This document shows positions 18,199-64,000 of a stretch of 64,000 nt of DNA, piece by piece. A program made the translations under genes and the position numbers. The notes under the pieces were generated by a model. It saw only the letters and a list, made by a program, of their open reading frames with translations. It was not told the DNA's origin and searched no databases. The stretch is from an uncultured Flavobacteriaceae bacterium. GTDB taxonomy: Bacteria; Bacteroidota; Bacteroidia; Flavobacteriales; Flavobacteriaceae. The stretch is taken from positions 62,001 through 126,000 of the forward strand of contig CANMSN010000004.1 of assembly GCA_947500585.1 (NCBI GenBank), given 5' to 3'. Every line of letters starts with the position of its first letter. Positions within the stretch are counted from its first letter, which is position 1.

Positions 18199-18546
18199 TT
18201 ATCGCATTCTATTTTTATCCTTTTCCATATATTCCTTAATCTTTTTGTCTTCCCAAGACTTTCCAAAAAGCAAGTTTTTTCCAAATATACCCAAGGCATG
18301 AAACCCTAAACCAATTCCCCAGAAAAACGCTGTTGAAAATGTTCCATAATGCCAAATATTTCCGTCTGAATTTACAGCAATCATTACAATTAAAAAGATA
18401 TTTACTGCCAAATACCAGAAGGCGTGCCAGTAAAATCCTTTAAGTTCTTTTAGTCTTTTTTCTGCTCTTAAATAAGCGTCTTCTTTTCTGTAATCTGTTA
18501 TGTCTTTATATTCTTGAAGTTCCATAATATTCATTTTTAATTCCAT
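18199..18546 (-). CDS. 2TM domain protein
   Basis: A 115-residue membrane protein with the 2TM domain: AYLRAEKRLKELKGFYWHAF leads into the first membrane helix (WYLAVNIFLIVMIAV) and the second is in FFWGIGLGFHALGIF, followed by the conserved FGKSWEDKKIKEYMEK tail. It overlaps the upstream 2TM gene by 10 bases. 2TM proteins are commonly found with LytTR two-component systems in Bacteroidota; a role in sensing or tuning the kinase is inferred. It is the most diverged of the three 2TM copies in this operon. Confidence 0.85.
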   Translation of the reverse strand: MELKMNIMELQEYKDITDYRKEDAYLRAEKRLKELKGFYWHAFWYLAVNIFLIVMIAVNSDGNIWHYGTFSTAFFWGIGLGFHALGIFGKNLLFGKSWEDKKIKEYMEKDKNRMR

Positions 18547-18842
18547 CTTCTATTTTCTTCTTTTTCCATTAATTCTCTTATTTTTCTTTCTTCCCATTTT
18601 CTACCAAGAAAACCATCATGCACAAATACTTGATAGGCATGAAAACTTAAACCAATACCCCAACCTAGTATGGGAAACCAAAACCAATGAAAATCCCATG
18701 AGGTTTTATAATTTATAAATATTAAAAAGGGTATTACCAAACAGTACGATATCAAATTATAATAAAAACCTTTAATATCTTCTACGCGCTTACGTGCTTC
18801 TAAGTATTTATCTTCCGTATTTATATTTGATAATCTTTGCAT
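18537..18842 (-). CDS. 2TM domain protein
   Basis: A 101-residue membrane protein. Its KYLEARKRVEDIKGFYYNLI, helix ISYCLVIPFLIFINYKT and WFWFPILGWGIGLSFHAY are nearly identical to the C-terminal domain of the adjacent histidine kinase, so the two arose by tandem duplication. It ends with the charged tail GRKWEERKIRELMEKEENRR. Gap to the kinase gene is 12 bases; overlap with the next 2TM gene is 10 bases. Probably forms mixed oligomers with the kinase in the membrane (inference). Confidence 0.87.
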   Translation of the reverse strand: MQRLSNINTEDKYLEARKRVEDIKGFYYNLISYCLVIPFLIFINYKTSWDFHWFWFPILGWGIGLSFHAYQVFVHDGFLGRKWEERKIRELMEKEENRRWN

Positions 18843-18854
18843 AATCCTTAATTT

Positions 18855-20192
18855 TTAGTTCCAGCGGTTATCATCTTCTTCTTGCATAAATTGTTCTATT
18901 TTACGCCTTTCCCAATTTCTACCAAAGGCACCATCGTTAACAAACGTTTTAAAAGCCTGTATTGCCAAACCTAAACCCCAACCCAACATAGGAAACCAAA
19001 ACCATTGGAAACCCCAATATGTTTTATAATTGATAAATACTAAAAAGGGTATAACTAAGCAATATGAAATTAAACTGTAATAAAAGTTTTTAAGTTCTTC
19101 AACATGGTTACGTGCACGCAAGTAACTGTCATCTATTAATGATTGTTGTGTTCTCATAACTGAAATTTGTTTTGTAAGCATTGGTATAGCAACTGCAAAC
19201 CTATTTGCTTCTTTATTTATATATACTTTTTTATTGGTTAACAAATTGTAGCGTTGCTTAATATTGGTTAAACCTACACCACTACTCTTTTTTACTATTT
19301 GTTTAGGTTGTAAATTATTTTCTACTACCAAATTATCTCCATCTTCATAAATTTTAATATGTAATGGTTTACTAGAAGTAACCATATTATGCTTCACAGC
19401 ATTTTCTAATAATAACTGTAATGATAATGGCACAACTTTACTTTCTGGATTTGATGCTTTATCTGGCATTTCAAAAACAATGCTATCTTCAAATCGCATT
19501 TTAAGCAACAACATGTAGGTTTTTGCAAATTGCAGCTCTTCATCAACGGTAACTAATTCTTTATTTTTCTGTTCTAGAACATATCTATAAACTTTTGATA
19601 AAGAGGTAGTAAACCGTTGCGCATTTTCTGGATTTTCCTCAATTAAACTGGTTAATACATTTAAACTATTGAATAAAAAATGAGGATCTAATTGGTTTTT
19701 TAAGGCATCAAACTTAGCACTTGCTGTACCTGCTATTACTTTTTGTTCTTTTATTTTATTTTGTTGGTATCTATTATAGAAATATATAAAATGAAATATG
19801 CTTAGTATAGTTAAAGTAATCCATAATCCAAATTGGTAATAGCTAAACTTTTCGTTGGCTAAAAACTCGGTAAATGGTTTATCTGAGTAGATTGAAAACG
19901 TAAAAGCTCTGAGAAAAAACAAACCTGTTAAAGTGATAATTGTAGAACCTAAAATTCCAAGAACAATTCTTTTTACAGTATCATTTTTTTTCCAATTTCG
20001 ATTACTCATATAGTCGAAAAAGAACATGTTAGAATATCCAAGAACAAAAGAATAGAGTTGATAAAACCCAAAATTTATTAAAGCTGCATTGGTACTTTTA
20101 AAATTAAAACCATTATCAATAAAACTTCCCACAATGAATACGGCGCATCCGATTATGAAGGTTATAAAAATTTGTTTTATATTTTTTGACAT
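18855..20192 (-). CDS. LytS-type sensor histidine kinase fused to a 2TM domain
   Basis: A 445-residue kinase. Four N-terminal membrane helices span about residues 8-140. The His_kinase domain has the phosphoacceptor histidine 171 in LDPHFLFNSLNVL, an N-box LLLENAVKHN (asparagine 264) and a G-box SGVGLTNIKQRY. The ATPase part ends near residue 345 and the last 100 residues (from methionine 346, codon at 19155-19157) form a full 2TM domain nearly identical to the downstream 101-residue protein. An internal start at 346 could also yield the free 2TM domain. The kinase would phosphorylate the LytTR regulator at the end of the operon. Confidence 0.92.
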   Translation of the reverse strand: MSKNIKQIFITFIIGCAVFIVGSFIDNGFNFKSTNAALINFGFYQLYSFVLGYSNMFFFDYMSNRNWKKNDTVKRIVLGILGSTIITLTGLFFLRAFTFSIYSDKPFTEFLANEKFSYYQFGLWITLTILSIFHFIYFYNRYQQNKIKEQKVIAGTASAKFDALKNQLDPHFLFNSLNVLTSLIEENPENAQRFTTSLSKVYRYVLEQKNKELVTVDEELQFAKTYMLLLKMRFEDSIVFEMPDKASNPESKVVPLSLQLLLENAVKHNMVTSSKPLHIKIYEDGDNLVVENNLQPKQIVKKSSGVGLTNIKQRYNLLTNKKVYINKEANRFAVAIPMLTKQISVMRTQQSLIDDSYLRARNHVEELKNFYYSLISYCLVIPFLVFINYKTYWGFQWFWFPMLGWGLGLAIQAFKTFVNDGAFGRNWERRKIEQFMQEEDDNRWN

Positions 20193-25255: not shown

Positions 25256-25285
25256 TAGATTTCTGCTTTCGCAGGAATGACAAGA
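25256..25285. repeat. dispersed hairpin repeat (TAGAT..TTCTGC/GCAGGAATGACAA)
   Basis: A copy of a short repeat also found at 33024, 34459, 35171 and (diverged) 40142: TAGAT, a CC-rich hairpin, then GGAATGACAA. Here TTTCTGCTTTCGCAGGAA forms the hairpin between two convergent genes and may act as a terminator for both. Confidence 0.6.
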
Positions 25286-33023: not shown

Positions 33024-33053
33024 AGATTCCCGCCTACGCGGGAATGACAAAAA
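33024..33053. repeat. dispersed hairpin repeat (TTCCCGCCTACGCGGGAATGACAA)
   Basis: Copy 2 of the hairpin repeat (AGATTCCCGCC and GCGGGAATGACAAAA). It lies immediately before the GTG start of the methyltransferase gene, so it would be in the leader. Confidence 0.7.
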
Positions 33054-34458: not shown

Positions 34459-34489
34459 TAGATTCCTGCCTTCGCAGGAATGACAAAAT
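34459..34489. repeat. dispersed hairpin repeat (TTCCTGCCTTCGCAGGAATGACAA)
   Basis: Copy 3 of the hairpin repeat, at the end of the DUF1287 gene; likely also acts as a transcription stop for that gene. Confidence 0.7.
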
Positions 34490-35170: not shown

Positions 35171-35200
35171 AGATTCCCGCCTTCGCGGGAATGACAAAAT
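35171..35200. repeat. dispersed hairpin repeat (TTCCCGCCTTCGCGGGAATGACAA)
   Basis: Copy 4 of the hairpin repeat, 9 bases from the stop of the outer-membrane barrel gene on the minus strand. Confidence 0.7.
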
Positions 35201-36972: not shown

Positions 36973-37002
36973 GAGATACTTCGACTGCGCTCAGTATGAC
37001 AG
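36973..37002. repeat. dispersed repeat (ACTTCGACTGCGCTCAGTATGACA)
   Basis: Intergenic copy of the second repeat family, between the TPR and barrel genes. Its relatives occur in frame inside genes at 28171, 33104 and 63866. Confidence 0.65.
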
Positions 37003-56505: not shown

Positions 56506-56538
56506 AGACCTGTCAGGTTTTAAAAACCTGACAGGTCT
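56506..56538. repeat. perfect palindrome with 16-base arms
   Basis: AGACCTGTCAGGTTTT and AAAACCTGACAGGTCT around a single central base. It lies directly after the stop of the DUF547 gene on the minus strand and may end its transcript. A comparable palindrome is a known dispersed type in Bacteroidota. Confidence 0.7.
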
Positions 56539-63079: not shown

Positions 63080-64000
63080 ATGCTTTTAAATCCTTCGCTT
63101 ATTAAACTTTATAAAATACCATTATTAATGGTGTTTTCAAGCGTCTTATTCTATTGGGCATTTGCATATAATTTGGTAAGAACAGATTATATAAAACTCA
63201 TTACACTCTATATTGGGCTATTCATTATATTCTATAATGTTATAAAACTTTTAAAGCATAATACTAAAGCATTAACCTATTTAGGATTTGGTTTTAGAGC
63301 TATATTTCTTTTAGCCATTCCTAATTTATCACAAGATTTTTACCGTTTTATTTGGGACGGAAGAATAATTTTAGAGGGTGTAAATCCCTATCTATTCACT
63401 GTTGAATCTTTTATAAACAAAGGAGAATTTCCAGTTTCTCAAGCTCAAGAATTGTACATGGGCATGGGGCAATTAAATGCTAGTCATTTTAGTAATTATC
63501 CGCCTATAAATCAACTCTGTTTTGTAATAGCAAATTTATTTTCAGGACATAGTATTCTAACTTCTGTAATAGGTTTAAGGTTAATAATTATTGCAGCCGA
63601 TTTTGGAACACTTCATTTTGGAAAAAAACTTTTAGAAGAATTAAATATCCCTGTTTATAATATCTTTTGGTATATTTTGAATCCGTTTATAATTATTGAA
63701 CTCACAGGCAATCTACACTTCGAAGGTGTTATGATTTTCTTTTTAGTGTGGAGTTTGTATTTGCTACATATTGGTAAATGGAAATGGGCTGGTGTAGTTT
63801 TGGCTTTATCGATTTCTGTAAAATTGATACCCCTTATTTTCTTACCCTTATTTTATCAATGGTTTACTTCGACTACGCTCAGTAAACTAACTAAGCGAAA
63901 TGTCGTTGCGAACGAAGTGCGGTTATCTGGCAAAAAGGAAGCATCTGCTTCGTCTCTTATTCCTCACAATAACGTGGAAAAGACTTCAACGGCTCTTTAC
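63080..64000 (+). CDS. membrane mannosyltransferase-like protein (partial, 3' end outside window)
   Basis: An ATG at 63080 opens a frame that stays open to the window end (at least 307 residues). Several membrane helices are seen (MVFSSVLFYWAFAYNLV; FWYILNPFIIIELTG; WAGVVLALSISVKLIPLIFL). The stretch PNLSQDFYRFIWDGRIILEG, NPYLF, and YPPINQLCF match flavobacterial mannosyltransferases (GT-C type: QDxYRFxWDGR). From about residue 263 the sequence WFTSTTLSKLTKRNVVANEV onward is encoded by dispersed repeats (63866-63979) without frame break. Uses lipid-linked sugar, perhaps from the GT2 gene at 60877. Confidence 0.82.
   Translation, partial: MLLNPSLIKLYKIPLLMVFSSVLFYWAFAYNLVRTDYIKLITLYIGLFIIFYNVIKLLKHNTKALTYLGFGFRAIFLLAIPNLSQDFYRFIWDGRIILEGVNPYLFTVESFINKGEFPVSQAQELYMGMGQLNASHFSNYPPINQLCFVIANLFSGHSILTSVIGLRLIIIAADFGTLHFGKKLLEELNIPVYNIFWYILNPFIIIELTGNLHFEGVMIFFLVWSLYLLHIGKWKWAGVVLALSISVKLIPLIFLPLFYQWFTSTTLSKLTKRNVVANEVRLSGKKEASASSLIPHNNVEKTSTALY
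63866..63979 (+). repeat. two dispersed repeats inside the mannosyltransferase coding region
   Basis: First ACTTCGACTACGCTCAGTAA, a copy of the repeat at 36973; then an imperfect palindrome GTTGCGAACGAAGTGCGG ... CTGCTTCGTCTCTTATTCCT and CACAATAACG. The frame stays open. Confidence 0.6.

Follow-up and report, generated by a model that had tools for sequence, protein, structure and literature searches.

The insert and its host gene

The window analysed here is a 64-kb stretch (C4:62001-126000) of the 3.76-Mb draft genome of a Flavobacteriaceae bacterium (G000, hereafter the source genome). Its last gene, which starts at position 63080, continues for 582 bases beyond the window and comprises 500 codons in all (L002:1080-2582). 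An earlier note, made from the sequence alone, had described this gene as a membrane mannosyltransferase carrying two tandem in-frame repeats at positions 63866-63979 that create no stop. Both repeats were found at this location (Table 1), one belonging to a family that we term F4 and the other to a family that we term F1, and both are read in frame within an intact gene. The remainder of the gene, which the note had proposed to obtain, stays open to its stop, ruling out a pseudogene or frameshift beyond the window end.

Table 1. Coordinates of the host gene, its insert, and other repeat copies recognised in the window.
Feature	Position	Strand	Basis
F3 copy between genes	25259..25281	+	Pattern match
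F3 copy outside long ORFs	33026..33048	+	Pattern match
F3 copy between genes	34462..34484	+	Pattern match
F3 copy between genes	35173..35195	+	Pattern match
F4 copy between two genes	36980..36993	+	Pattern match
Gene of a GT-C type membrane mannosyltransferase (codons 1-307 of 500)	63080..64000	+	Open frame; sub-cut-off family matches; AlphaFold model
Conserved helix preceding the loop, about IPLIFLPLFYQWF	63830..63865	+	Alignment; helix 250-263 in AlphaFold model
F4 repeat ACTTCGACTACGCTCAGT, read as TSTTLS	63866..63883	+	39 exact pattern copies genome-wide
Spacer of 18 nt, F4 to F1	63884..63901	+	Sequence
F1 element of 72 nt (inverted dimer, decayed), translated in frame +0 as VVANEVRLSGKKEASASSLIPHNN	63902..63973	+	Repeat scoring

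The encoded protein displays sub-cut-off matches to GT87, TIGR03459, and MptB, and the solved folds nearest to its AlphaFold model (mean pLDDT 78.5, pTM 0.82) are those of ALG6, GPI mannosyltransferase I, PIGU, and PimE, with 6snh (E 2.1e-4), 9wno, 8imx, and 9dm5 as the top Foldseek matches and only two matches passing E 0.001. Based on these family matches and folds, the host protein is a GT-C enzyme. In the model, the insert-bearing region sits between the conserved helix and a helix at residues 304-329, and consists of a helix at residues 266-282 followed by a loop, of which residues 284-301 have a pLDDT below 50 and are predicted to be disordered.

Six repeat families were considered, with consensuses GTCATTGCGAACGAAGTGAAGCAATCT ... 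CCTCGCAATGAC (F1), GAGATGCTGAAACAAGTTCAGCATGACA (F2), TGGATTCCTGCCTTCGCAGGAATGACA (F3), CTTCGACTNCGCTCAG (F4), CCTCTCGACTGCGCTCGAGGTGACA (F5), and GTCATTTCGAGCGCAGTCGAGAAATCTC (F6). Two copies of the F4 core CTTCGACNNNGCTCAGT (up to two mismatches) are present in the window where 0.14 would be expected, a count of two being reached by 2 of 100 shuffles, and the exact copies counted in the source genome stand against none for the reversed pattern. The F1 element is an imperfect inverted repeat (GTCGTTGCGAACGAAGTG ... CCTCACAATAAC) encoding residues 275-298, with ends decayed to TGTCGT and AATAAC. When up to one mismatch was allowed, GCGAACGAAGTGCGG had a single match in the source genome; it is the element's relatives, not GCGAACGAAGTGCGG itself, that are repeated. 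Scored against the repeat consensuses, the loop reached 17; the best of 100 codon shuffles gave 12, and the best of 15 same-length segments elsewhere in the gene gave 8. A third, decayed F4 just past the insert (from about 63984) was rejected as not significant, with 64 of 1000 codon shuffles equally good.

The three in-frame cases that the earlier note had counted in the window could not be reproduced, as the other recognised copies (four F3, one F4) lie outside long ORFs; the note's other cases may belong to families outside the F1-F6 models. A density of three per 64 kb did not hold more widely either: in 872 kb of the source genome, 10 of the 33 F4 copies lie within genes, and these in only four (the GT-C gene, PurL, a topoisomerase, and PolA, the last assigned from its N-terminal exonuclease domains). 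A fifth gene has a single weak F2 match, and none of 18 F3 copies lies within ORFs of at least 120 codons. The leading 13-mers from 864 kb of this genome derive mainly from F3, F4, and an AAACCTG..CAGGT family. The F3 and F4 copies in the window all face one way though the flanking genes differ in direction, which hints at replication-linked spread, and across the window and the sampled stretches of contigs C1-C3 the strand bias of both families follows contig and GC skew. The window also contains two direct copies of 286 nt (18530-19133), 72% alike, whose starts lie 318 bases apart.

Repeat content of the loop across relatives

We aligned the source-genome protein with the best 80 of 583 candidate orthologues, three of whose translations contain one stop close to the match end, and with 20 distant sequences hand-picked for varied length. 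Across these 101 family sequences, the loop segment, measured from IPLIFLPLF up to the helix that follows, has a length of 30-107 residues. DNA-level scoring covered the 81 sequences other than the hand-picked ones, 4 of which had too short cores. Among the resulting 77 loops, drawn from the best 80 of 583 candidates, 45 match a repeat consensus so well that no more than 1 of 100 codon shuffles scores equally high, a fraction that rises with core length from 3/25 at 10-19 aa to 7/14 at 20-34 aa and 35/38 at 35 aa or more. Nearly all of the loops in the longest class (36 of 38) also score above every same-length segment elsewhere in their own gene. Because long cores match repeat consensuses beyond both codon shuffles and own-gene segments, most of the added loop length is repeat DNA, and many long loops can be read at the DNA level as strings of families F1-F6. 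The same families are found outside the loop: in the 48 genomes searched, drawn from 50 of the 80 orthologue loci (L034 and L091 lying outside this sample), a dispersed F1 pattern was detected in 28 and an F2 pattern in 40, with no match for reversed controls. Copies fetched with their flanks are complete elements, some in arrays, and most have stops mid-element.

On a tree calculated from the alignment with the loop columns removed, the number of carriers nearly equals the minimal number of changes for every family (F1 22/21, F2 12/12, F3 9/9, F4 9/9, F5 5/5, F6 5/4), and for F1 and F2, the two families tested in this way, the scatter of carriers is no different from that of shuffled labels. 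For these counts, the hand-picked distant sequences were taken as non-carriers except L189, assigned by eye; the F1 list includes L076, also by eye, the F4 list includes G000 and L036 (each scoring 14), and cross-matches between F5 and F6 led to L078 and L084 being left out of the former list and L100 out of the latter. Since carriers were set by a similarity threshold and decayed inserts were scored as absent, this scatter is inflated to some extent. In the 66 pairs among 12 F1-bearing GT-C genes, four-fold sites beyond the loop show saturation, with 34% identity, and within F1 identity amounts to 70% at third positions and 67% at four-fold sites; in every one of the pairs, the third positions of F1 are more alike. 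F1 copies at the same site are 71% identical (79 pairs) vs 74% for copies at different sites (152 pairs). With F1 third positions at about 70% despite saturation outside the loop, and with same-site copies no closer than others, the F1s of this loop are unlikely to descend from an old shared insert, and taken together with the scatter of carriers on the gene tree this suggests that insertion recurs. The length range and the comparison of F1 with silent sites also rule out the loop being an old conserved domain.

The main alternative to recurrence is one ancestral insertion per site, inherited and then lost or diverged in most lines, as favoured for the RPE-4, RPE-6, and RPE-7 repeats in the parts used here of a report on Rickettsia japonica (PMC3767692). 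Occupation of the same sites across genera would fit such a history, as would the internal sequence common to some loops (e.g., AAAAAGGAAGC in G000 and L035) and some phylogenetic signal in loop length, with loops of at least 46 aa requiring 25 changes on the tree vs 32.6 for shuffles (smallest 26). It is difficult to reconcile, however, with the silent-site and same-site comparisons above, with the occupation of one loop by different families, or with L034 (107 aa) being sister to L105 (30 aa) with support of 98/84, and we consider it improbable. In these data, which include no empty site from a very close strain, no insertion between strains of one species was seen, and neither a target-site duplication nor a transposase was found.

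Reading frame and insertion sites in other genes

Within the mannosyltransferase loop, most families are read in a single frame: all 13 F1 left arms are in +0, as are all copies of F2 (12/12), F3 (9/9), and F6 (6/6), with F4 in +1 in 7/9 and F5 in +0 in 4/7 cases. F1 right arms are in +0 in 15 cases, and the 2 weaker antisense matches fall in loops with an additional +0 match. The frame is not set by stop avoidance alone, as three to five of the six frames of each consensus are open (F1 left arm 4, F2 3, F3 5, F4 4, F5 5, F6 5). The orientation of F2 and F3, uniform in all of their copies in this loop, likewise exceeds what stop avoidance demands, so that something beyond it must also act. Possibly, a polar peptide is better tolerated than hydrophobic or basic alternatives, or orientation may follow replication.

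A survey of 299 family genomes with the +0 peptide of F1 yielded 26 matches in 22 genomes, 22 of them within open frames of at least 395 codons, namely PurL site 2 (8 genomes, G047 being assigned by coordinates), the GT-C loop (6), Mfd (3), GltX (2, one of them in the source genome), and PurL site 1, a NamZ-like gene (weak match), and a HemN-like gene (1 each); domain assignment by Pfam covered one Mfd and the two GltX proteins. The other two frames that are open in in-gene F1 gave 33 and 38 matches, of which 0 and 1 were in a long frame, many of these matches being the antisense of the same places. A complementary set of 40 F1 copies, picked by DNA pattern (27-nt left arm), included 11 in frames of at least 239 codons, 10 of them in +0 and one (L346) in +2. 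The copies in +0 comprised LeuS (three genomes, one site), GltX (two), PurL site 2 (one), the GT-C loop of L050, methylmalonyl-CoA mutase-related genes (two), and a frame without Pfam match (L335). Open frames in these surveys run from stop to stop, so that a copy near a frame start, such as L346, may precede the gene. PurL, Mfd, and GltX likewise carry F1 in frame +0, each at homologous sites, and LeuS carries its left arm only; at one PurL site the family itself is exchanged (F4 in the source genome vs F1 in L201).

The source-genome PurL (G000:C1:300356-304198, L145:356-4198) carries six F4 copies at two inter-domain sites, which hold other repeats in some relatives. The GltX of the same genome carries an F1 (G000:C8:13079-13153, L265) between the catalytic and anticodon-binding domains, a site also filled by F1 in three further genomes (L282, L337, L343). 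In LeuS, the F1 left arm lies at one place before the editing-domain motif VFTTRPDTIFG (L326, L328, L339), with an extra repeat in L339.

In-gene F1 copies are also mostly uniform in length. Complete elements identified by DNA pattern measure 72 nt in 22/25 distinct cases, the rest being 63, 66, and a doubtful 71 nt (L346). This pattern missed 10/22 in-gene loci of the peptide search; for nine such loci with the peptide shown, the V-to-D length is 24 residues in seven, 28 in L276, and 22 in L285. Outside long frames, 41 strand-matches (one copy may count on both strands) span 71-99 nt, with only 1/41 that is both divisible by three in length and open in +0, and among 15 measured copies (70-95 nt) this applies to 2 (L347, L349). 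The earlier suggestion that such repeats are tolerated is borne out by the intact gene, the variable loop, and its predicted disorder. The companion suggestion, that they are selected to lack stops in certain frames, fits the in-gene copies but not the repeats as such: because F1 outside long frames is so seldom frame-keeping, the frame bias is best understood as a filter on the copies that persist in genes.

Explanations and relation to known repeats

In the mannosyltransferase loop, an intact frame and a uniform reading of recognisable repeats coincide with carriers that are scattered across genera, and silent sites are saturated outside F1 but not inside it. We consider it probable that REP-like repeats insert widely and that selection keeps the frame-keeping copies in a few tolerant loops, of which this is one. 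Several short palindromic families, four of which (F1, F2, F3, F6) have a (C/T)GTCAT...ATGAC end, are dispersed in Flavobacteriaceae genomes. Under such a model they would insert at many places, but inside genes only frame-keeping, stop-free insertions would persist, gathering where a surface loop or linker can accommodate a polar peptide, which is the case in a few proteins. The loop at 63866-63979 would then be a sink in which F1-F6 were gained, stacked, decayed, and lost independently in different lineages. In this reading, hot spots would reflect peptide tolerance and frame filtering rather than target-sequence preference, and the insert peptide would be functionally neutral.

Alternatively, the hot spots could be DNA target sites of transposition or of a replication-linked process, the target fixing orientation and frame. 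The uniformity of both in the mannosyltransferase loop would be expected in that case, and strand usage points in the same direction: in sampled stretches of the source genome, where GC skew is negative in 17 of 18 50-kb blocks, copies are distributed 27 to 6 between strands for F4 and 14 to 4 for F3 (clustered copies counted singly), F4 lies on the majority strand within contigs in 23/27 cases (permutation p 0.004), and the flanks of the GT-C gene have negative skew in 58/72 loci. However, no common flanking sequence was recognised by eye at the GT-C, PurL, Mfd, GltX, and LeuS sites, and F4 is used in both orientations in PurL, which makes target-site choice an unlikely explanation. A further idea is that the stop-free 72-nt F1 represents a gene-adapted lineage that spreads from gene to gene and homes to homologous loops, e.g., when single strands are copied during replication or when one in-frame copy converts another, its 24-residue peptide being under selection to be harmless; this we regard as quite unlikely. 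The loops could also be selected functional modules, such as a peptide tag, or hairpins in the mRNA at which translation would pause between membrane halves. Their recurrence in a few housekeeping proteins and the hairpin of the consensus F1 (-26.5 kcal/mol in one predicted fold, without shuffle comparison) would agree with a function, but relatives with 30-aa loops manage without any insert, copies decay (the outer stem of the window F1 has mismatches, judged by eye), and different families replace each other, so that a selected module seems very improbable.

The insertion of palindromic repeats in frame is a known kind of event, in Rickettsia and in other phyla, and is here unusually clear and recurrent. 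Members of the CGTC superfamily of REPs have a CGTC or TGTC tag, an AT-first stem, and a short loop, and in other phyla also occur inside ORFs, in clusters coding for 43-82 aa and frequently within genes for replication, repair, and tRNA ligases (PMC3733652). F1, F2, F3, and F6 share this type of end ((C/T)GTCAT), and F5 ends in TGTCAC. Judged by eye, F3 fits a stem of 8-9 bp, a loop of 4-5 nt, and a CCA tail (TGTC-ATTCCTGC-GAAG-GCAGGAAT-CCA), and F1, an inverted dimer of two units, has a less regular stem. The present families and the CGTC-tagged REPs are both dispersed, and the CGTC group is described as lacking a dedicated transposase in the sections of PMC3733652 used here; its gene classes are echoed by PolA, topoisomerase, Mfd, LeuS, and GltX. 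Unlike these REPs, most F4 copies, including the one in the window, lack the ATGAC end (present within 8 nt of 2/41 cores in L003-L032, some loci overlapping). The same sections note one same-site case, in two Xanthomonas recB genes, without describing a recurrent multi-family sink, and name Bacteroidetes merely as carriers.

The RPE-4, RPE-6, and RPE-7 repeats of Rickettsia are another close parallel: according to the parts used of PMC3767692, they are in-frame palindromes in conserved genes (DnaE, QueA, PheT) that share an ATGAC motif and the same orthologue sites, with different groups near each other. They belong to another phylum, and there the insert is common to orthologues, whereas here repeated recent gains are supported. 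The combination of in-frame location in conserved genes and ATGAC was found for F1, F2, and F3 but fails for most F4. An NCBIfam scan of one F1 peptide and three carrier proteins, with a library that includes RPE models, listed no RPE family. In a different element family and host, the Correia/NEMIS repeats include an open-frame 107-bp species inside genes and a stop-rich 155-bp form almost only between genes, as far as the portion of PMC2229807 used here goes. REPs have been counted in two Flavobacterium genomes, the word "intragenic" being absent from the portion of that paper used here (PMC12306157), and no description of in-frame repeats in Flavobacteriaceae was found in titles and abstract openings, a search with most subscription papers and supplements outside its scope. 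What is new here is that several families recur at homologous sites and thereby allow hot spot vs one old insertion to be tested. In the parts used of the Rickettsia work (PMC3767692), this question was left open, its authors favouring one old insertion but unable to exclude hot spots. The many recent, apparently independent cases in Flavobacteriaceae, at the GT-C loop, PurL sites 1 and 2, Mfd, GltX, and LeuS, make it testable by comparison of strains. Such inserts also mark protein loops that accept insertions, and provide a natural route for non-coding DNA to supply new peptides to housekeeping enzymes.

Mobilisation of these repeats by the source genome's own Y1 transposases was rejected, as no F-family pair flanks the Y1 genes examined (L115-L118, L120), one of which (L118) has a single F2-like match on one side only. 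With no GTAG end in the consensuses either, the families do not belong to the RAYT-mobilised GTAG REPs or REPINs. One Y1 transposase ORF of 535 codons (L117, G000:C8:119313) has an in-frame, exact F4 core near residue 334. Two others (L116, G000:C1:397195; L118, G000:C10:67884) lie near other palindromes, ATGCGAAGTTT/AAACTTCGCAT and AGACCTCACAGGTTTT/AAAACCTGTGAGGTCT, to which a AAACCTGACAGGTCT pair at positions 56506-56538 of the window is related.
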